Source: Thermococcales archaeon 44_46 (GTDB taxonomy: Archaea > Methanobacteriota_B > Thermococci > Thermococcales > Thermococcaceae). From it: DNA of 13,337 bases. Made by a program: the position numbers and the translations under genes. Position 1 is the first letter of the stretch, and the number at the start of each line of letters is the position of its first letter. Below, piece after piece: positions 133 through 13,337 of the stretch. The DNA is taken from contig LGET01000024.1 in NCBI GenBank assembly GCA_001507935.1, forward strand, positions 1 to 13,337. Reading direction: 5' to 3'. The notes under the pieces are model-generated. The model saw nothing but the letters and a program-made list of their open reading frames with translations. It ran no database searches and was not told where the DNA came from.

Positions 133-1134
133 CTATCTCTTCTTTTCTACTTTTGTAAAGGCTATTACCTCTTCTCCCAAGGCTTTCAATTTGTAGGCCT
201 TCAGTTCCCCCAGGAGGAACATCTTTATGGCTTCCATGGTTGTCTCACGCCTTCTTAAAGCCTTCTGAGCATCTTCGACACTTACAGCCCTAAACCTAAT
301 CTTTCCTCCGGGCCTCGTTTGAGCAACCTTTGGAATGTCCACTCTGGCAACGACCCCTATCTTTGCGTATCCTCCAGTTGTCTGCCTGTCAGCGAGCATT
401 ATTATCGGCTTGCCGCTTTTTGGGACTTGAATCGCGCCGAGGGGAATGGCATCAGTGATTATGTCGGCACCTTTTTCTGAGTGCTCTATTTTCGGACCCT
501 CCAGCCGGTAGCCCATCCTATCAGACTCCGGTGTTACCTCGTAAGTTGAGCTTAGGAATGTTCTAATTCCTTCTTCTGTAAAGTGGTCTTCTTGTGGCCC
601 TAAAATTACCCTAACTTCACTCTCGTTTGAATATTTTGGCACAAACGCCTCCGGAAGCTTTTTACCATCCTTCCCTGTTAAAATTGCGTAGCCCAGGCTT
701 AGAGTATCCCCACTTTTCAGCGCTCTGCCAAAGTTTGCCCTCAAATAGGTGGAGCAGCTACCAAGAATCCGCTCACAACATATCCCTCCGGCAAATGCTA
801 TATATCCGTACATTCCGGTTTTTAGAGTTCCTATCTCCAACACATCGCTCCTCTTTGCCCAGTAGCTCTCCCAGGGGTTAATAGGGATACCGTTTAGTTT
901 TGCATCAACATCTCCGCCTATGGCGAAAACCGCTGAAGAGTGAAACCTTATGGTTGGTCCCCTCAGGACAAATTCAAGCAGAGGCGTATTGTCCTCATTC
1001 CCTACGAGATAGTTTGCCAATCTGGCAGAGACCTCATCCATAACTCCGCTTACTGGGACGCCAAACTTTTGGTAGCCTGTTCTTCCCAAGTCTTGGATTG
1101 TCATTAGCGAAGGAACATTAACAAGCTCTATCAT
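133..1134 (-). CDS. pxpC: 5-oxoprolinase subunit PxpC (biotin-dependent carboxyltransferase/AHS2-like)
   Basis: This is one of three subunits of prokaryotic 5-oxoprolinase, which uses ATP to open 5-oxoproline to L-glutamate in the cytoplasm. The 333-residue protein starts MIELVNVPSLMTIQDLGRTG, and the IQDLGRxGYxxxGVPxSGxMD stretch near residues 13-34 is the family hallmark. GCIP-like glycine-rich turns and the C-terminal PGGKIRF motif (residues about 280-290) also fit AHS2/KipA-type proteins. I chose the ATG at 1134: the frame stays open to 1182, but that extra part lies wholly inside pxpB and does not resemble the family. pxpC overlaps the end of pxpB by 17 bases, so translation is probably coupled. 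It is the last gene of the pxp operon. Confidence 0.93.
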   Translation of the reverse strand: MIELVNVPSLMTIQDLGRTGYQKFGVPVSGVMDEVSARLANYLVGNEDNTPLLEFVLRGPTIRFHSSAVFAIGGDVDAKLNGIPINPWESYWAKRSDVLEIGTLKTGMYGYIAFAGGICCERILGSCSTYLRANFGRALKSGDTLSLGYAILTGKDGKKLPEAFVPKYSNESEVRVILGPQEDHFTEEGIRTFLSSTYEVTPESDRMGYRLEGPKIEHSEKGADIITDAIPLGAIQVPKSGKPIIMLADRQTTGGYAKIGVVARVDIPKVAQTRPGGKIRFRAVSVEDAQKALRRRETTMEAIKMFLLGELKAYKLKALGEEVIAFTKVEKKR

Positions 1135-1822
1135 TGCTCTCGCCCCATTCTTGCTTATAAATCTCCCAGAACTCTTCTTCACTTATAGGCACAAACTTAA
1201 CGTAATCTCCAGCCTTTACTATACTTGGCGGGCTTTTAGAAGGATCAAAGGTTTTCAAGGGTGTTCTTCCAATTAAGCGCCATCCTCCAGGGCTTTCTAT
1301 GGCATACCATCCCGTTTGCTTCCCAGCTATGCCCACACTCCCGGCTGGAACTTTTAAACGCGGCTTCTCAAGCCTTGGTGTTGCAATCCTCTCGTCCATC
1401 CCGCCAAGATAAGCAAACCCTGGGAGAAATCCAAGCATATAAACTCTATAGAGGGGCTTTGAGTGTATCTCAATGACTTCCTCAACCGTTAGTCCATTGC
1501 ACTCCGCAACGAACTCTATGTCCGGGCCGAACTCTCCTCCATAGGCAACAGGTATCTCGATGATTCTCTTTTCCTCCTCTCTAGGCTCCGCAGAAAGGAA
1601 GGGCTTTACGGCTTCGAGAACTTCAGAGTATGAGATTTTGAGGGAATCATAGTAGATATAAACGCTTGTGTAAGTTGGCACAACTTCAATGAGCCACTCT
1701 GGAGCTGCTTCCTCAATTGCTTCCGCAACGGCATGGACTTTTTTATTAACATTTTCATCGATTTCATTGCCAAAAATTATTGCTATGGCTGAATCGCCAG
1801 CCGGTTTAAAAATTGGAAACAT
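1118..1822 (-). CDS. pxpB: 5-oxoprolinase subunit PxpB (KipI/AHS1-like)
   Basis: This is the second 5-oxoprolinase subunit and works with PxpA and PxpC. The 234-residue protein carries the AHS1/KipI signature: GFLPGFAYLGG at about residues 131-141 and VPAGSVGIAGKQTGWY at about 158-173, followed by SPGGWRLIGRTP. A GTG at 1831 is in frame, but it forms part of the ribosome binding site AGGTGAT (1827-1833). The ATG at 1822, four bases beyond that site, is the better start. The site overlaps the TAG stop of vapC (1832-1834), so ribosomes ending vapC arrive directly on the pxpB start. In most genomes pxpB is next to pxpA or pxpC; here it is separated from pxpA by a toxin-antitoxin pair. Confidence 0.93.
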   Translation of the reverse strand: MFPIFKPAGDSAIAIIFGNEIDENVNKKVHAVAEAIEEAAPEWLIEVVPTYTSVYIYYDSLKISYSEVLEAVKPFLSAEPREEEKRIIEIPVAYGGEFGPDIEFVAECNGLTVEEVIEIHSKPLYRVYMLGFLPGFAYLGGMDERIATPRLEKPRLKVPAGSVGIAGKQTGWYAIESPGGWRLIGRTPLKTFDPSKSPPSIVKAGDYVKFVPISEEEFWEIYKQEWGESNDRAC

Positions 1823-1831
1823 AGAAATCAC

Positions 1832-2206
1832 CTATAGTCGGGTTTTAGAATATTCAGCCCAGAAATCTTTTTCAAAATGCCTTGTGTTGTAGGTTACAAT
1901 TGTTAGTCCATTTCGTAGTGCAGTGGCGGCTATTAATGCATCAGCAATACCTACTTGGTAATCTCTTCGAAGCTCGCCCCCGAGGATTGCTATCTCTTCG
2001 TCAAGTGGAATTACATTAAAGTGGGATAGAAATCTCAGTATCTTCTCTTTTTTAACGACGTCTCTGGTTTCTTTTCCTGAAAATATCTCTGCGATTGTTA
2101 TTGTCGAAATGTGTATCCCTTCCTTCGAGATTTTTAGTAAAAATTCCTTTGATCCAGCTACTCCTCGAAGGATATCAATTATTATGTCAGTATCCACTAG
2201 ATACAT
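1832..2206 (-). CDS. vapC: VapC-type PIN-domain ribonuclease toxin
   Basis: The 124-residue protein is a single PIN domain. Acidic residues expected in the Mg-dependent nuclease site are present: D5 (with D7) in VDTDIIID, E40 in TIAEIFSG and D89 in GIADALIAAT. N107 follows in the TYNTRHF motif. Family knowledge: VapC toxins cut RNA, often initiator tRNA or rRNA loops, and are held inactive by a partner VapB; the target here cannot be told from sequence. Its start lies 20 bases inside the end of the upstream antitoxin gene, as usual for this pair. Its stop overlaps the ribosome binding site of pxpB. It lies within the pxp operon, on the same strand. A non-toxic PIN nuclease is the main alternative. 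Confidence 0.88.
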   Translation of the reverse strand: MYLVDTDIIIDILRGVAGSKEFLLKISKEGIHISTITIAEIFSGKETRDVVKKEKILRFLSHFNVIPLDEEIAILGGELRRDYQVGIADALIAATALRNGLTIVTYNTRHFEKDFWAEYSKTRL

Positions 2207-2387
2207 CTCGATCCCACTCTTTTCTGAGCTTTTTGAGATCTATTTTCTCACGTATAATCCCAAATACTTCTTCAATGTCTTTTTCGAGTTCATCTATTAT
2301 GACTAGCTTGACTTTCTTTGGAGCTTTTACCTTCTTCACTGGCTTAAATACTCCATTTTCATATATGGCATCAACAATGTTCGGCAT
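2187..2387 (-). CDS. vapB: VapB-type antitoxin, DUF104 (AF2212/PG0164-like) family
   Basis: This 66-residue protein begins MPNIVDAIYENGVFKPVKKV. The I-x-A-x-Y-E-N-G-V-F-x-P pattern is typical of the DUF104 antitoxins found beside PIN toxins in archaea. The N-terminal half should form a short beta-hairpin DNA-binding or dimer domain. The second half, from about residue 35, is a charged helix (EKDIEEVFGIIREKIDLKKL) ending in a WDRD tail that would wrap the toxin. GGAAGGA lies directly before the ATG as a weak ribosome binding site. The end overlaps vapC by 20 bases. The gene follows pxpA after 54 bases, in which a TATA-like element can be seen, so the pair may be transcribed both with pxpA and on its own. 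Confidence 0.85.
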   Translation of the reverse strand: MPNIVDAIYENGVFKPVKKVKAPKKVKLVIIDELEKDIEEVFGIIREKIDLKKLRKEWDRDVSSGY

Positions 2388-2421
2388 ATTCCTTCCCTGC
2401 AGATGTTATTGTGTTGATTCA

Positions 2422-2435
2422 TTATTAAACTTTTC
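2422..2435 (-). promoter_or_regulatory. Candidate internal promoter for vapBC
   Basis: On the minus strand this stretch reads GAAAAGTTTAATAA, a purine-rich BRE-like element followed by a TATA-like box. It lies in the 54-base gap between pxpA and vapB. A start about 25 bases downstream would fall near 2401 and give a leader of roughly 14 bases. The match is moderate, and in A+T-rich DNA it could arise by chance. Confidence 0.4.
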
Positions 2436-2441
2436 AGGAGC

Positions 2442-3206
2442 CTAAACAAACTTTCCCATAGGAACGACTTTCACTCCCTCTTCTTCGAGGCGCTTTCTTA
2501 TGTATGCTGTTATCTCAACAGCTTGAGGATTGTCTCCATGAACGCAGATTGTGTCCGCTTTGAGCTCAACCCATTCGCCGTTAATAGCTTTAACACCCCC
2601 GTCTTTGACCATTGAGATTACTCTCTCGGCTATAAGCTCTTTATCATGAATAACTGCTCCCGGCTTTCTTCTTGAGACGAGGGTTCCATCTGGATTGTAT
2701 GCCCTATCGGCGAACACTTCGTGGGCTACTTTTAGCCCCATCTCTTCTGCAATCTCCAATGGCTTTGACATTGAGAGCCCAACGAAAATAAGCTTCTTGT
2801 CGAAATCTGCAATTCCCTCTAGGACTCCCCTTGCAAGCTCTTCGTCTTTAACCAGAGCGTTGTAAAGTGCTCCATGGGGCTTAACGTGCTGGAGCTCCAG
2901 CCCTTCGGTCTTCACGAACGCATATAATGCCCCAACCTGGTAGAGAATGTAGTTCCTTGCCTCTTCCCGCGTTATGTCCATGTACCTCCTTCCAAAACCC
3001 ATTAAGTCTGGATAACCCGGATGTGCCCCAACAGCGACGTTCAGCTCTTTGGCAAGCGTTACAGTTTTTCTCATTACCATTGGATCACCAGCATGCCAGC
3101 CGCATGCAACGTTTGCCGATGTTATGTACTTCATAACCTCTTCATCAAGACCCAGCTTGTACCTCCCAAAGCTTTCACCAAGGTCAGAGTTGAGGTCTAC
3201 TCTCAT
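2442..3206 (-). CDS. pxpA: 5-oxoprolinase subunit PxpA (LamB/YcsF family)
   Basis: This is the third 5-oxoprolinase subunit, of the LamB/YcsF family with a polysaccharide-deacetylase-like barrel. Hallmarks are [12 protein letters not shown] at residues 3-14, [27 protein letters not shown] and VKPHGALYN. The conserved Asp, Glu and His residues in these motifs are expected to form the active site. The start is the ATG at 3206, preceded by GGTGGTGG; an in-frame upstream codon at 3257 would add 17 residues that do not fit the family. The resulting 254 residues match the usual length. It is the first gene of the operon pxpA-vapB-vapC-pxpB-pxpC and is divergent from nob1. In a heat-loving cell, spontaneous cyclisation of glutamine to 5-oxoproline makes this activity plausible housekeeping. 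Confidence 0.95.
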
Positions 3207-3266
3207 TGTTTCCACCACCCAATAATAAAGCGATAACCCTTTAACCCTTTTCTCCAATCACACATT
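3207..3266. promoter_or_regulatory. Divergent promoter region of pxpA and nob1
   Basis: These 60 bases must hold the promoters of both divergent genes. The only TATA-like core at a sensible distance is CCCTTTAACCC around 3238-3248, and its complement AAAGGGTTAAAGGG follows a purine-rich stretch. Read leftward it puts a start near 3218, with a leader of about 12 bases carrying GGTGG for pxpA. Read rightward it puts a start near the nob1 ATG, which has no ribosome binding site, so nob1 could be leaderless. Sharing of one TATA core is inference. Confidence 0.4.
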
Positions 3267-3854: not shown

Positions 3855-4301
3855 TCAACCCCTAAGCGTTGCTATTAACCTTTTCTCATTTAGCAGCAGA
3901 TTAATAGCATCTTTAACATCCTTAACCACTATATCACTTGCCAGCAATGCCTCGACGCTGGCTCCTTCATCTCCTATTGCGCATATGGCAAGCTTGGCAT
4001 TCTCAAGCATTCTGACGTCGTTATTGCCGTTGCCAACTCCAATGTAGGGTTCATATTTTAATGCTTTCTGGAGCTTTTCGTTGCCATCTTTGACCTTTTC
4101 TATTTTAACTTTCATGCCCTTAAACTCGTCTTCCAGAGTCCCAAATGTATCGGAGCTTAGAACAACGATCTCGTATTTTTCGCCAAGTTTCCTTAAAAGC
4201 TCCTTTACCTCTTCCCTTACTTTTCCTTCAAGGCCTAGTGTTCCATTTAGGTCAAATATAATTGTTCGTGCGCTTATTTTTCCATAGTTTGGAATCTCCA
4301 T
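3855..4301 (-). CDS. Small HAD-superfamily hydrolase, soluble P-type-ATPase-like (COG4087 type)
   Basis: The 148-residue protein has all four HAD motifs: D17 in DLNGTLG (motif I), S49-S50 in VLSSD (motif II), K71 or K76 in KVKDGNEK (motif III) and GNGNND at 90-95 (motif IV). The second motif-I acidic residue, which acts as general acid in phosphatases, is Asn here. P-type ATPases similarly lack it, as in their DKTGT motif, so a phospho-aspartate intermediate may be long-lived. There is no cap domain and no membrane segment, hence the old label soluble P-type ATPase; the substrate is unknown. I chose the ATG at 4301 because GGTGG precedes it and the protein then begins just before the first strand; the frame stays open for 28 more codons. 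It is divergent from the flavoprotein gene. Confidence 0.82.
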   Translation of the reverse strand: MEIPNYGKISARTIIFDLNGTLGLEGKVREEVKELLRKLGEKYEIVVLSSDTFGTLEDEFKGMKVKIEKVKDGNEKLQKALKYEPYIGVGNGNNDVRMLENAKLAICAIGDEGASVEALLASDIVVKDVKDAINLLLNEKRLIATLRG

Positions 4302-4372
4302 TCTGTCCACCAGAGGAAGTTTAGCAAAAATGCTTAAAACTTTGTTCTCAACATCCAAGTGGTGGAAGAGTT
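4302..4372. promoter_or_regulatory. Candidate single TATA element serving both divergent genes
   Basis: The 71-base gap has one clear TATA-like core, GCTTAAAAC at 4332-4340, nearly the same on both strands (GTTTTAAGC). Its centre is about 25 bases plus a 10-12 base leader away from each start codon. A GGTGG ribosome binding site lies in each leader (4304-4308 on the minus strand, 4361-4365 on the plus strand). The symmetry suggests that one TBP site can fire both ways. Confidence 0.5.
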
Positions 4373-4903
4373 GTGAGAGTGGCATGGGGAATCAGTGGGG
4401 CTGGGCACCTGCTTCTGGAAAGTATTGAGGTACTAGAAAAATTAAAGGACAAGCATGAGATTAAAATATTCCTATCCTCGGCTGGAGAAGAGGTAGCCAG
4501 AATGTATGGAGTTCTCGAAAGGATAGGAAGCTTCCCTCTCGTTAGGGAATCCAAACAGGGGCATTCGTTTCCTTCATGCGGTGCTTTTAATCTGGGTAAA
4601 TTTGACGTCTTTGTAATATCCCCCGCAACTTCAAACACGGTTGCAAAGATAAGATTGGGCATAGCAGATTCTTTGCTTTCATGCTGTGCATCTCAAGCCT
4701 TGAAAAGTAGAGTGCCGTTAATACTAGTCCCAACAGATTCCAAACCAGTTGTGGAAACCAAAGCCCCTAACGGGGAAATCTTTAAAATCTATCCACGCAG
4801 AATTGACCTTGAGCATCTCGAAGCGTTAAGAAAAGAAGGGGTAGTAGTTCTTGATCACCCTTACGATGTGGAAAAAGCTTTAGAGCGGTTTTTGTGGATG
4901 TAG
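4373..4903 (+). CDS. Archaeal flavoprotein, UbiX/Pad1-like fold (MJ0208/AfpA type)
   Basis: The 176-residue protein opens with VAWGISGAGHLL, a nucleotide-binding strand-loop typical of the flavoprotein (HFCD) superfamily. It contains SPATSNTVAKIRLGIADSLLS at residues 83-103, where these proteins bind FMN. A Cys pair at C104-C105 and the closing HPYDVEKAL motif resemble archaeoflavoproteins of the MJ0208 type, some of which are dihydromethanopterin reductases in methanogens. A Thermococcales cell lacks that pathway, so the electron partner here is unknown. The start is GTG with GGTGG seven bases before it. The 3' end overlaps the end of the convergent surface-protein gene by 43 bases. Family assignment is from motifs; the exact subfamily is less sure. 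Confidence 0.78.
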   Translation: MRVAWGISGAGHLLLESIEVLEKLKDKHEIKIFLSSAGEEVARMYGVLERIGSFPLVRESKQGHSFPSCGAFNLGKFDVFVISPATSNTVAKIRLGIADSLLSCCASQALKSRVPLILVPTDSKPVVETKAPNGEIFKIYPRRIDLEHLEALRKEGVVVLDHPYDVEKALERFLWM

Positions 4904-6918
4904 TAGAATTTTCCATCTTTTGTTACTGTTACGTAGTCTGGGGTGTATTTTGGACCATAATAGAGGTTGTGTCCATCCAGTCTGTACCATAAAGCTCTTG
5001 CCGCTTCGAGCTTGTTAAGTTCATCTAAAACGCTCAAGTTCCCTTCCTTTACCATCTCCAGCAACCCCTGCACATATTGCTCGCTTATGTTGAAAGTCAC
5101 GTAAGAGGCAAAGAACTCATATCCTGTGATCAGCTCTTCCATGAGGTTTTTGTAGGGATACGCTGGAGTTACAGATATATTAAAGCGCTTGTAAAAATCC
5201 TCTACTGCAGTAACGTCGGGCCTGTAGGGAAGTATCCCAAGAACCATCATCTCTACTGTATCATCATAGTATCTCCTAAACCAATCCCGATCATATGGAT
5301 AGAAAAGGTTCTCATTTGATATGTAAGGGTCTTTTCCAAGGACGTAAAGGGCTCTATAGTTGCTTCCAACTAGAAGGGGCACATCCCATATTACTATTAT
5401 CTCTGAGTGATCGAGCTTCCATCCGCTAATGCTTGCCGGGATCTGAAGTGCCCACGCTTTGAGGTTGAAGTCCATGAAAAAGTTGTTCATGAGAACAACT
5501 TGGGTTTCTCCATCGTAACCACATATGCCTGATCTTAGGGTTTTTATTACGGGCAAATCGTAGGAGTGGACGTAGCTGTTTACAAAATAGGCTATGTGTA
5601 GGGGGGTTATGGAGTAAAAGGGTAAAGGTTTGTTGTAAAATCGGAAGAAGTCTTCTTTAGCTCTTTCGTAAAAGAATTTCATGGCTCTTCCCATCTTAAT
5701 CTTGCCGTACCTATCAAACCCCAAATCCGGATAAATGATCTTGTATATGTGGAGGGGTTTGTAAGTAGCTGCCGATCGCCATATGTGCTCCAGCTCTTTC
5801 CTGCTATAAGGATGAGCATTCTGAAACCATTCGCCGCTTTCATCAAATTTTATCTCAAAAATTTCTGGGTAGTGGGAAAACTCCACTCGGATTGAATTGG
5901 AATTTCCATGATAATCTCTCCCTTTTATCGTTATGTTGTACTCTCCCCATCCCAGCGAAAACTCTATTATTGAACTGTAGGTAAGGGATTGCGTTTTAAT
6001 GTTGACTTTGTATTCCTTCTCCCCCACATTAATAACGAGCTCCTTCGGGGGATTCACATTGTCCCTTATTGTAAACGCAACTTTAACTTTCTCCCCTTCA
6101 CTTTCTATAGTTCCCCATATTTTAGGAGCTTTCTTATCGCTTTTCTGCTCTTTTTGAAAAACTTCCCAACTGAGATTTACCTTAGTGATTTCAAATCTCG
6201 CCGAGTTTTCTATGAACCACTCCCTAAAGGTTTGGTTGGTGATTAGGTAGCTCTCTATTGAGCCAAGGTTTTCAAGAAATTCTTCTATCTCATAAGGCTC
6301 GAATCCATCTATTATTCCATTCATGTTGTCTATAGCGTTTTTCACGTCAGGGGGAAGTTCATAGAGGGCCATGTGAAGATCCTTTATTAGGGCAATATAA
6401 TTCTGCAACGTACGGGCGGCGTAGATGTTCTGGGAGTTTTCTATGCCGTTTCTAATCCTAGGTGGCAACTGGTTGTAAGTTTCAAGGAATTCGCTTACCT
6501 GATCCTCGAATATTGTTACCTTCTTAGAGAATTCTTCAAGCGTATAGGGGCTTTCTGAAAAAAGAAAACGAATCATGTCATCTCTTAGGGGGTATGGAAC
6601 TTCTTCAAGAACTCTGCTGACCCTTTCGCTTAAATTTGCGAGGAGAATTAAGTTGTCGGTCTCTACTTCATCAAGCAGTGTACTCCTGTATTTGTAGAGA
6701 GGGTATATTTTATTTGCTATGTCTTTCTCTTCTTCGCTTAACTTTCCATCATCAAGAAACCCCAGCTTTGAGGTAATCTCATATATCTCCTGGTCTCTTT
6801 GGGTGATCTGTTGCGGAGGAGGCTGTACAGCTCTCATGCTCCAGAAAAGGAGGATTAAATACGCCAAGAAGAGTCCAATGAGAATTTTTTTGGCATCAAC
6901 AACAAATTTTTTCCCCAT
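4861..6918 (-). CDS. Membrane-anchored surface protein with probable transglutaminase-like domain
   Basis: The 685-residue protein has a short basic N-terminus, then one hydrophobic segment at residues about 11-29. It is therefore probably a type II membrane protein facing outward, or one with an uncleaved signal anchor. Eight N-x-S/T sequons (N95, 228, 248, 328, 580, 610, 627, 677) fit an extracellular glycoprotein. Residues 30-260 look helical, with recurring L-P-P-x-[IV]-[RK]-N-[GA]-I units (151-159 and 188-196). Residues 264-350 look like an Ig-type beta sandwich. Residues about 435-535 resemble a transglutaminase-like fold: C466 in [10 protein letters not shown], then H504 in [12 protein letters not shown], with D512 or D530 as possible third residue. 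The enzyme class is inferred from this pattern only. The gene is alone on its strand, divergent from nikR. Confidence 0.75.
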
Positions 6919-7004: not shown

Positions 7005-7421
7005 GTGAGGATAATCCGTTTTGGTGTCTCGATGCCGGAAGATCTCCTAGAAAAGTTTGATGCCATTATAGAGGAAAAGGGATACGCTAACAGAAGTGAG
7101 GCTATTAGGGATTTGGTGAGGGATTTTATAGTTAGACACGAGTGGGAGGAAGGGGATAAGGAAGTTGCTGGAACTATAACCATTGTTTACAACCATGATG
7201 AGGCCGACGTGGTGAAAGAACTCCTTGACATGCAGCACGATTATGTGAATGAAATTATCTCAAGCCTTCACGTTCATATGGACGAGCACAATTGCCTCGA
7301 GGTCATTGTAGTTAAGGGAAAAGCCAGCAGGATAAAGAGAATAGCCGAACGGCTAATTAGCCTGAAAGGGGTAAAGCATGGAAAGCTAGTCATGACCACT
7401 ACGGGCAGAGAACTGGTATGA
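7005..7421 (+). CDS. nikR: Nickel-responsive transcriptional regulator NikR
   Basis: NikR is a ribbon-helix-helix repressor that binds DNA when loaded with nickel and limits nickel uptake. The 138-residue protein has the N-terminal ribbon and helices ([17 protein letters not shown], residues 3-19, to about 45) and an ACT-like metal domain from about 52. Nickel ligands are visible: H78 in MQHDY and H89, H91 and C97 in [10 protein letters not shown]. They correspond to H76, H87, H89 and C95 of the Escherichia coli protein. The start is GTG at 7005, four bases after GGTGAT (6995-7000); earlier in-frame codons have no such site and would lie in the promoter. No nickel transporter or hydrogenase gene is adjacent in this window, so its targets are elsewhere. 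tRNA-Thr follows 41 bases on. Confidence 0.94.
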
Positions 7422-7436
7422 AAAAGCTTATAAATT
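7420..7436 (+). promoter_or_regulatory. Promoter of tRNA-Thr
   Basis: GAAAAAG followed by CTTATAAA is a strong archaeal BRE plus TATA pair. It starts at the last bases of nikR. Its centre near 7431 predicts a start about 25 bases downstream, a few bases before the tRNA at 7463. Confidence 0.7.
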
Positions 7437-7462
7437 TCTCTTTTATCATCACACTTGGGTGT

Positions 7463-7539
7463 GCCGGGGTAGCCTAGCTCGGTAGGGCGGCGGACTCGTA
7501 ATCCGCAGGTCCCGGGTTCAAATCCCGGTCCCGGCTCCA
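7463..7539 (+). tRNA. tRNA-Thr (anticodon CGU), CCA encoded
   Basis: The 77 bases fold as a full cloverleaf. The acceptor stem GCCGGGG pairs with TCCCGGC (one G-U), the D stem GCCT pairs with GGGC, and the anticodon stem GCGGA pairs with TCCGC around the loop CTCGTAA. The variable loop has 5 bases, and the T stem CCGGG/CCCGG closes the loop TTCAAAT. The anticodon CGT at 7497-7499 reads ACG, so the tRNA carries threonine. The discriminator is U73, followed by CCA in the DNA. There is no intron. Confidence 0.97.
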
Positions 7540-7552
7540 TATCCTCGTTTCT

Positions 7553-12049: not shown

Positions 12050-12108
12050 ACAAAATCTTTTAGAAAAACTATTTAGGCACTAGATATAGTTTAGTTGGAG
12101 GTGGGAAA

Positions 12109-12900
12109 ATGAAACCCATTATTGGAATTGTGGCTTCTTTTGACTGGGAAACCGGTGCCCTTACCATAAACGACACTTACGTTAAGAGGATTAGAGATGC
12201 TGGAGGGATACCCGTAGCAATTCCGCCGCTTCTGGGGATAACAGATGTTATCGAAGCGATAGATGGGCTTATAATTCCCGAAGGTCCCGATATTCACCCA
12301 AGATATTACGGGGAGACACTCTCTGATAAAATTGAATGGCTTGATGTACAGAGGGATGAATTTGAACTTGCCCTCATTAAAGTTGCCCTTGAGAAAGGCC
12401 TCCCCATGCTGGGAATAGGCAGAGGGGCACAGGCGATAAATGTTGCCCTAGGAGGTAGCTTGTATCAAGACGTTAGCGAAATCCCAAAAGCCATAAGACA
12501 CAATTGGCTTAAAAACGGAAAATTCTTGGTACATCCTGCCGCGAAAGTTCATGAAGTGAGGATAAAGCTGGACTCTCTGCTCTTTGAGATACTTAAGGAA
12601 AACCTGAATGTTGAGTCTACGAGCGAGGTTTTTATAGGGGTTAACAGCTTCCATCACCAGGCTATTAAGAAACTTGGAAATGATGTAAAACCGGTGGCAT
12701 ATGCAGAGGACGGAATAATAGAAGCCATTGAAGTAGAAGGGAGGTTTGCAATAGGAGTTCAGTGGTTGGCTGAGTACCTTGACGAGATGGAACCGCTTTT
12801 TAGGGCTCTTGTAAAGAAAGCCCTTGAATACAAAAAGAAAAAACTTGGCCTGCTAAACCCTAAAAACAATTCAATAAATCTCCCCGTGGAGGAGTTGTAA
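12109..12900 (+). CDS. Class-I glutamine amidotransferase-like protein (PuuD/C26 family) lacking Cys and His
   Basis: The 263-residue protein has the fold and length of gamma-glutamyl hydrolases such as PuuD: IIGIVAS at the start, DGLIIPEGPDIHPRYYG (52-68), the nucleophile-elbow region LGIGRGAQAINVALGGSLYQD (101-121), VNSFHHQA (178-185) and GVQWLAE (216-222). In active members the elbow reads G-I-C-R-G and the later motif V-Q-W-H-P-E. Here G104 (codon GGC at 12418-12420) replaces the Cys and L220 (TTG at 12766-12768) replaces the His; only E222 remains. The frame is otherwise intact, so this is probably a maintained pseudoenzyme or a protein with another role. A strong GGAGGTGG site fixes the start. 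The end overlaps the convergent radical-SAM gene by 30 bases. Family call is firm; activity is not expected. Confidence 0.88.
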   Translation: MKPIIGIVASFDWETGALTINDTYVKRIRDAGGIPVAIPPLLGITDVIEAIDGLIIPEGPDIHPRYYGETLSDKIEWLDVQRDEFELALIKVALEKGLPMLGIGRGAQAINVALGGSLYQDVSEIPKAIRHNWLKNGKFLVHPAAKVHEVRIKLDSLLFEILKENLNVESTSEVFIGVNSFHHQAIKKLGNDVKPVAYAEDGIIEAIEVEGRFAIGVQWLAEYLDEMEPLFRALVKKALEYKKKKLGLLNPKNNSINLPVEEL

Positions 12901-13337
12901 TACCAGATGAGAACCATCGCAACTGGGGTAGGAATAATAACCCTCTCTGCAGGAGCCGAAGGTTATGCCTTTCGCTTCTATCTTTTTTCTCGCCTCCTCT
13001 AGAATCTTAAATCTTATGTCTTTTGGCAGGTAATAATAACCGCCTATTCTTTCCCCTTTCTTGTAAAGGGGTGCGAGCTTTTTCATTAGCTCGGGGAGTT
13101 TTGCCTCCATTCTCTTCCAAGAATCCATTCGGAGTTTTAAAGTTGACACAGTTATGTGAGACACAAAGCTCAACGAATCAAGAGTCTCATCAAAGTCTTC
13201 CCAAGTGTAAAAAGGTATTATCGGGTCAATTCGAGCGTAGACGGGAATACCTTCCTTCTTTGCTTTTTTCAATGCCTTGATTCTTTCCTTCGGCAGGGGT
13301 GCGTTTGGCTCAAGGAGTTTTGCTTTTTCCTCATCTA
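12871..13337 (-). CDS. Radical-SAM protein, spore-photoproduct-lyase-like (C-terminal part)
   Basis: The frame enters from the right edge and ends at a TGA at 12871-12873, giving about 154 residues of the C-terminal part. The segment LLEPNAPLPKERIKALKKAK, then GIPVYARIDPIIP, is the conserved late-barrel region of COG1533 (SplB-related) radical-SAM proteins. The C-terminal CREGYYSYPSCDGSHLV is also typical, with two cysteines that may bind a further cluster. The C-x3-C-x2-C motif for the 4Fe-4S cluster and SAM lies outside the window. An in-frame TTG at 13272 is internal and is not the start. It converges on and overlaps the amidotransferase-like gene by 30 bases. Whether it repairs DNA photoproducts or modifies something else cannot be told. 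Confidence 0.83.
   Translation of the reverse strand, partial: DEEKAKLLEPNAPLPKERIKALKKAKKEGIPVYARIDPIIPFYTWEDFDETLDSLSFVSHITVSTLKLRMDSWKRMEAKLPELMKKLAPLYKKGERIGGYYYLPKDIRFKILEEARKKIEAKGITFGSCREGYYSYPSCDGSHLVLQLLHGEIY

Follow-up and report, generated by a model that had tools for sequence, protein, structure and literature searches.

What is a glutamine amidotransferase-fold protein still good for once it has lost both the cysteine and the histidine of its catalytic triad? This question is raised by a gene in a 13,337-nucleotide stretch of DNA from Thermococcales archaeon 44_46 (contig LGET01000024.1; the whole stretch is called the window below), which encodes a PuuD/SpuA-like member of the Peptidase_C26 family and which we call pseudo-C26. 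A sequence-only reading had described an intact frame in which Cys and His, 116 residues apart, are both replaced (G-I-G-R-G and V-Q-W-L-A-E) and the VNSFHHQ loop is kept, and had suggested selection for a role without Cys-His hydrolysis. We found the description to be correct, and the suggestion is strongly supported: judged by residues and evolution, the predicted product is shown to be an old, vertically inherited, selected pseudo-hydrolase of single origin. We put at about one half the probability that its pocket still binds a ligand of the gamma-glutamyl type and that the protein would serve, without hydrolysis, as a sensor, a carrier or a regulatory subunit.

The features on which the argument turns are listed here, with residues compared between 31 active-type sequences (28 distant sequences and 3 from the Thermococcaceae) and the 70 intact orthologues that lack the catalytic His, termed His-less copies.

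12109 to 12900, plus strand: pseudo-C26 gene, encoding a 263-residue PuuD/SpuA-like protein of the class I glutamine amidotransferase fold without the catalytic Cys and His
12097 to 12105, plus strand: purine-rich ribosome binding site GGAGGTGGG, read from the sequence, with the ATG 3 bases downstream
12280 to 12291, plus strand: altered G-G-x-D motif, E58-G59-P60-D61; E58 replaces the Gly of 31/31 active-type sequences, and P60 is found in 70/70 His-less copies
12418 to 12420, plus strand: codon 104, GGC (Gly), the nucleophile position in G-I-G-R-G; Cys in 31/31 active-type sequences
12640 to 12660, plus strand: loop V178-N-S-F-H-H-Q184, retained in 70/70 His-less copies
12766 to 12768, plus strand: codon 220, TTG (Leu), the catalytic His position in V-Q-W-L-A-E; His in 31/31 active-type sequences
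12772 to 12774, plus strand: codon 222, GAG (Glu), the third triad residue, kept; Glu in 66 and Gln in 4 of the 70 His-less copies

The frame is intact from its ATG start to its TAA stop, and two points go beyond the sequence-only reading: the triad retains its third residue, Glu222, and E-G-P-D stands at residues 58-61 in place of G-G-x-D. Membership of Peptidase_C26 by homology is clear, as the PF07722 profile matches residues 3-222, the whole domain, at 187.4 bits against a curated cut-off of 20.5 (E 4e-55). As a catalytic family, Peptidase_C26 is defined by a nucleophile Cys in a G-x-C-x-G elbow and a His two residues before a Glu (H-x-E), where this protein has Gly104 and Leu220. It also scores below the cut-offs of the PuuD equivalog NF008471 (104.5 versus 266) and of the gamma-glutamyl-CDP-amidate hydrolase model NF045546 (52.6 versus 250). 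A predicted model matched the class I glutamine amidotransferase fold over the domain (VIA-align of Foldseek's top 1000). The closest solved sequences were Lin1909 (3fij, E 1e-30; function uncharacterised according to its title), SpuA (native form 7d4r) and the gamma-glutamyl-gamma-aminobutyrate hydrolase PuuD of E. coli (6vtv). All three have the catalytic Cys and His, unlike the window protein, and the loop of SpuA reads NSIHGQ where the window protein has NSFHHQ. Naming by homology alone would thus yield a peptidase, an amidotransferase or a gamma-glutamyl hydrolase, names that the residues contradict.

Among 94 Thermococcaceae genomes searched at the protein level, 75 gave a match. We dropped one of these, G004, a weak match (31% identity over 105 residues) within a frame of 543 residues. 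Of the remaining 74 orthologues, 70 are intact and without His220, so the outcome that would have pointed to a recent loss or a sequencing error, relatives that all carry Cys and His, was not what we found. In these 70 copies, position 220 is Gln in 39, Leu in 13, Arg in 7, Trp and Asn in 4 each, Gly in 2 and Cys in 1, and position 104 is Gly in 44, Ser in 13, Cys in 11 and Ala in 2. The sequence-only reading had asked whether G104 and L220 are conserved. The conserved feature is the lack of a His, whereas Leu220 is not a family feature and Gly104 is a majority state. Within the window's own genus (g1), all 8 intact copies carry Gly104, paired with Leu220 in 6 and Trp220 in 2, and all 7 copies of g5 have Gly and Leu. 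That Gly occurs together with Leu or Trp repeatedly, in genomes assembled separately from one another, while all active-type sequences have Cys and His, means that the replacement reflects more than chance. One further copy of g1 (G081) is broken and split between two frames, and was excluded from the residue counts.

In the three other orthologues, Cys, His and GGG are all preserved; they are G093 (the record of L036, from JdFR-02) and, from g2, G001 and G002. In these, unlike in the window protein, GGGD, GICRG and QWHAE are intact, and presumably they are still hydrolases. L036 lies at the same locus and is 58% identical to the window protein over 247 residues; its predicted model (predicted local distance difference test score 95.3) has nearly the same order of secondary-structure elements.

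The gene that adjoins pseudo-C26 served as a syntenic anchor.

12871 to 13335, minus strand: convergent gene for a radical S-adenosylmethionine (SAM) protein, truncated where the window ends; it overlaps the pseudo-C26 frame at the 3' end of the latter, and its Radical_SAM match is below the cut-off

The same convergent neighbour was found in 72 of the 74 orthologue loci, including those of G093, G001 and G002. In 32 loci it lay within the limits set for the count; in the other 40 the offset was uniformly -61, a single base beyond the limit. The two exceptions are G046 (none in 4,982 bases) and G049 (contig end). This constancy indicates that the sequences are orthologues and not scattered paralogues. 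The 3' ends of the two genes overlap at window positions 12871-12900, and the 40 genomes with the -61 offset between frame end and match all belong to g4.

We built a tree of 81 sequences from an alignment without columns 58, 60, 104, 220 and 222. A single branch separates the 70 His-less sequences (ultrafast bootstrap 100, Shimodaira-Hasegawa-like approximate likelihood ratio test 97, 100% of 200 bootstrap trees) from eight outgroup sequences and the Cys/His orthologues G093, G001 and G002. An earlier tree of 103 sequences agreed with this nesting: these three orthologues lie just outside the His-less clade. The reconstruction shows one loss of the catalytic His, before g1, g5 and g4 diversified. 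Since parsimony requires at least 11 letter changes in the His column and at least 9 in the Cys column (10 and 8, respectively, on the first tree), both sites drift. For the 11 members with Cys, parsimony permits either that Gly came first and Cys returned or that Cys may have been lost many separate times. Ser at position 104 probably arose twice, because one Ser-bearing group, which adjoins the Cys-keeping group, uses TCN codons and the other uses AGY. In a g4 subclade (G021, G019, G033 and G030; loci L115, L111, L114 and L116) the third triad residue is gone as well, NPQ replacing HxE, and G021 pairs Cys104 with Asn220, a natural analogue of laboratory His-to-Asn mutants.

A ratio of nonsynonymous to synonymous substitution (dN/dS) near 1 would have spoken against selection. 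By pairwise NG86, a simple counting method, the ratio between the window gene and its orthologues in the same genus was 0.021-0.069 in five of seven comparisons, dS being saturated in the other two. Across pairs with dS of 0.1-1.5, the median was 0.048 in g1 (10 pairs, maximum 0.214), 0.024 in g5 (14 pairs) and 0.192 in g4 (595 pairs, maximum 0.369). Such low values mean that pseudo-C26 is constrained like a working gene. Of the 23 columns that are invariant in the active-type sequences, 15 are unchanged in all His-less copies (G32, G59, D61, P64, P99, G106, Q120, D121, H131, H148, N179, H182, H183, Q184 and E205); R105 is likewise found in all 70. Eight columns changed: 104, 220 and 222; position 58, Gly in active-type sequences, now Glu in 62, Asp in 5, Gly in 2 and Gln in 1; position 108; and, mildly, positions 185 (Ala 64, Gly 6), 186 (Val 37, Ile 32, Thr 1) and 187 (Lys 64, Arg 6). 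Pseudoenzymes are recognised by the loss of catalytic residues across an orthologous clade under purifying selection, and that combination is found here in 70 of 74 orthologues, in one clade and with low dN/dS.

The comparison thus shows the following course of events. A Cys-His-Glu ancestor of the PuuD/SpuA class lost its catalytic His; the Cys position now holds any small residue (Gly, Ser, Ala or Cys), and GGxD has mostly become (E/D)GPD, while fold and reading frame, together with the NSFHHQ loop and most residues invariant in the family, stayed under purifying selection. Beyond this, we propose that the protein would no longer form or hydrolyse a gamma-glutamyl thioester, that its gamma-glutamyl (glutamine- or glutamate-like) pocket would still bind a ligand, and that it may act by that binding in the metabolism of amino acids or gamma-glutamyl compounds. 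In class I amidotransferases, the glutamine-binding site is lined by the region that corresponds to NSFHHQ. Precedent for binding without cutting comes from mutants of such hydrolases with His changed to Asn or Cys to Ala, which according to the titles of their PDB entries were crystallised with a ligand or as the glutamyl-enzyme; the SpuA H221N entries 7d50 and 7d53 are titled as holding a glutamyl-thioester or Glu. The suggestion that the substrate pocket may still work fits the invariance of VNSFHHQ and has to be qualified at position 108.

Several observations weigh against ligand binding and a selected role of this kind. Position 108 is Gln in every active-type sequence, and in the His-less copies it is Gln in 42 and His in 28, all 28 of them in g4. 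Conservation of NSFHHQ within the 28 distant sequences is partly by construction, as FHHQAIKK was one of the six peptide patterns of the scan that found them; the loop is also present in four sequences of the same class found without that pattern, all of which keep Cys. Among 27 rows of a Pfam-model alignment (16 genomes and those four sequences), 25 have Cys and HHQ and 24 have His, although several rows repeat genes already in the comparison, one ends before the His and two are one odd bacterial frame (from Gallicola, below). Constraint on the gene is looser than on its radical SAM neighbour in g1 and g4, with a dN/dS about twice as high (0.123 versus 0.061 over 2 pairs in g1, 0.126 versus 0.074 over 118 pairs in g4), the corresponding values in g5 being 0.025 and 0.068 (10 pairs; dS of 0.1-1.2 in both genes throughout). 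It is also dispensable: no copy was found in 20 of the 94 genomes (9 of 9 in g3, 4 in g1, 1 in g2 and 6 in g4), six of the 20 being less than 85% complete, and none of 12 such loci examined at the radical SAM anchor held a remnant (best tblastn E 0.17). A close homologue of the aminotransferase that precedes the gene in g4 (E 1e-120 or better) is present in 90 of 94 genomes, all nine g3 genomes without the protein among them. The ligand and any partner are putative.

Several of these points would suit a protein-protein scaffold or structural subunit in which the former pocket is a relic, its conservation reflecting fold stability and an interaction surface. The catalytic sites drift freely, Q108 is often replaced, and P143, R151 and I125, invariant in the His-less clade, are other residues in the active-type orthologues closest to it, a pattern that new surface contacts might produce. 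If the protein were only a scaffold, however, N179, H182, H183, Q184, E205, R105, Q120 and D121 would not have to be identical in all 70 copies, and apart from the convergent radical SAM gene we found no neighbour fixed in position across all genera; we regard a scaffold as possible, with the odds clearly against it. The invariance of the two adjacent His residues and of Glu205 could instead mean that the pocket performs other chemistry, with the acid at position 58 or the HH pair as catalytic residues, and the change from Gly to Glu or Asp in 67 of 70 copies, beside an invariant new Pro60, would fit. Yet G070 (close to G024) has Gln at position 58 and the early branches G064 and G047 have Gly there, which would be unusual for an essential catalytic residue, and the genomic context suggests neither substrate nor pathway. 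A new enzyme thus seems unlikely.

Weak gamma-glutamyl hydrolysis without the canonical Cys-His pair is less probable by a wide measure. Gly59, the NSFHHQ loop and, in most copies, Glu222 persist, and 11 copies have Cys104, but none has His220, the Gly and Leu of the window lineage offer no side-chain nucleophile at those sites, the replacement letters vary between lineages, and the mutants cited above hold their ligand or intermediate. Decay in progress or an assembly error could account for the broken copy in g1 and for the genomes in which the gene was not found; as a general explanation it is refuted by 70 intact frames in three genera, low dN/dS, a single old loss in the tree and like replacements in many separate genomes, and we consider it barely credible. 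We therefore retain a pseudo-hydrolase with a ligand-binding pocket as the preferred reading.

The neighbourhood offers few clues to a partner. Upstream in the window lie a PCC-domain gene and a QueD/PTPS-like gene. In 54 of 55 g4 loci, an aminotransferase gene of the TK0186 type is directly upstream on the same strand; the g6 locus has a different aminotransferase there (41% identity), and none was found in the upstream stretches read for g1, g5 and g2 (less than 1,500 bases at one g5 locus), the homologue in g1 and g5 being located elsewhere in the genome. In G069, which has no pseudo-C26 gene, the aminotransferase and radical SAM matches are 36 bases apart. The presence of the aminotransferase in genomes without pseudo-C26 indicates that it does not depend on it, and TK0186, described in PMC11921379 as an aminotransferase that was purified in recombinant form and assayed, seems not to need pseudo-C26 for its activity. 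We keep a functional link between the two as a hint only. A link to the radical SAM neighbour was rejected, as that gene is convergent and also present in 14 of 15 searched genomes without pseudo-C26, which makes the association purely positional.

On the strength of the g4 arrangement one may speculate further that the disarmed pocket of Thermococcus (EGPD/NSFHHQ) is a metabolite receptor, sensing glutamine or a gamma-glutamyl metabolite and controlling amino-acid catabolism, the last element being suggested by the position directly downstream of the aminotransferase gene. We think this improbable, and the literature searched turned up no archaeal nitrogen sensor of the disarmed-amidotransferase type.

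Regulation of an active paralogue was considered and rejected. The sequence-only reading had proposed looking for such a paralogue in the same genome, and no PuuD-like one was detected, in an assembly that is 79% complete and could have missed it; from length and sequence, the two other PF07722 matches there resemble a GMP-synthase-type amidotransferase subunit (C109) and CTP synthase (C229). A search at E 1e-15 found a second C26 gene with Cys and His (GICRG, QFHPE; about 30% identical) in only 3 of 94 genomes (G078, G079 and G083; loci L128, L127 and L129), a threshold that more distant C26 paralogues may have escaped. At L127 and L128, a frame that reads as aminotransferase-like lies within about 450 bases of the second C26 gene on the opposite strand.

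The existence of pseudoenzymes in the class I amidotransferase superfamily is already known in principle, an example being carbamoyl phosphate synthetase I. In ureotelic animals its class I amidotransferase domain persists without the Cys, a parallel to pseudo-C26; that domain is fused to the synthetase, whereas pseudo-C26 stands alone. Nothing on this Thermococcus protein was found among the titles and abstracts listed. The locus tag of the KOD1 copy is, we presume, TK0187, under which the literature was unrelated only. A passage of PMC4870337 concerns an intracellular protease, which we take to be a different protein. Within the Thermococcaceae, the Cys/His orthologues at the same locus (G093 and two in g2), the single His loss, the drift of the Cys site and the absence from g3 form a clean series, which lets one ask what a disarmed pocket is still good for. 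The order has gene-disruption strains, among them T. kodakarensis KU216 (PMC11921379).

An unrelated tandem pair of C26 genes was seen in a metagenome-assembled genome of Gallicola sp. (DUUN01000864.1, L059/L171), with L059 at about 3896-4637 beside 4623-5334. One is active-type; in the preceding one, GVSRG, SSHTQ and QFNID replace GICRG, NTFHHQ and QFHPE, so that there the HHQ loop has gone as well, whereas the Thermococcus proteins keep it.

Elsewhere in the window, a 5-oxoprolinase cluster occupies positions 1118-3257 on the minus strand, with pxpB (1118-1831) and pxpA (2442-3257) and, between them on the same strand, a PIN-domain toxin-like gene (1832-2206) and an AF2212-like antitoxin-like gene (2187-2387). 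A 685-residue frame on the minus strand (4861-6918) has no Pfam match at E 0.01 and, by eye, one N-terminal hydrophobic stretch. A tRNA-Thr (CGT) lies at 7463-7539 on the plus strand, between nikR-like and nre genes; the minus-strand open reading frame at 7274-7540 reads through it and is most likely no gene.
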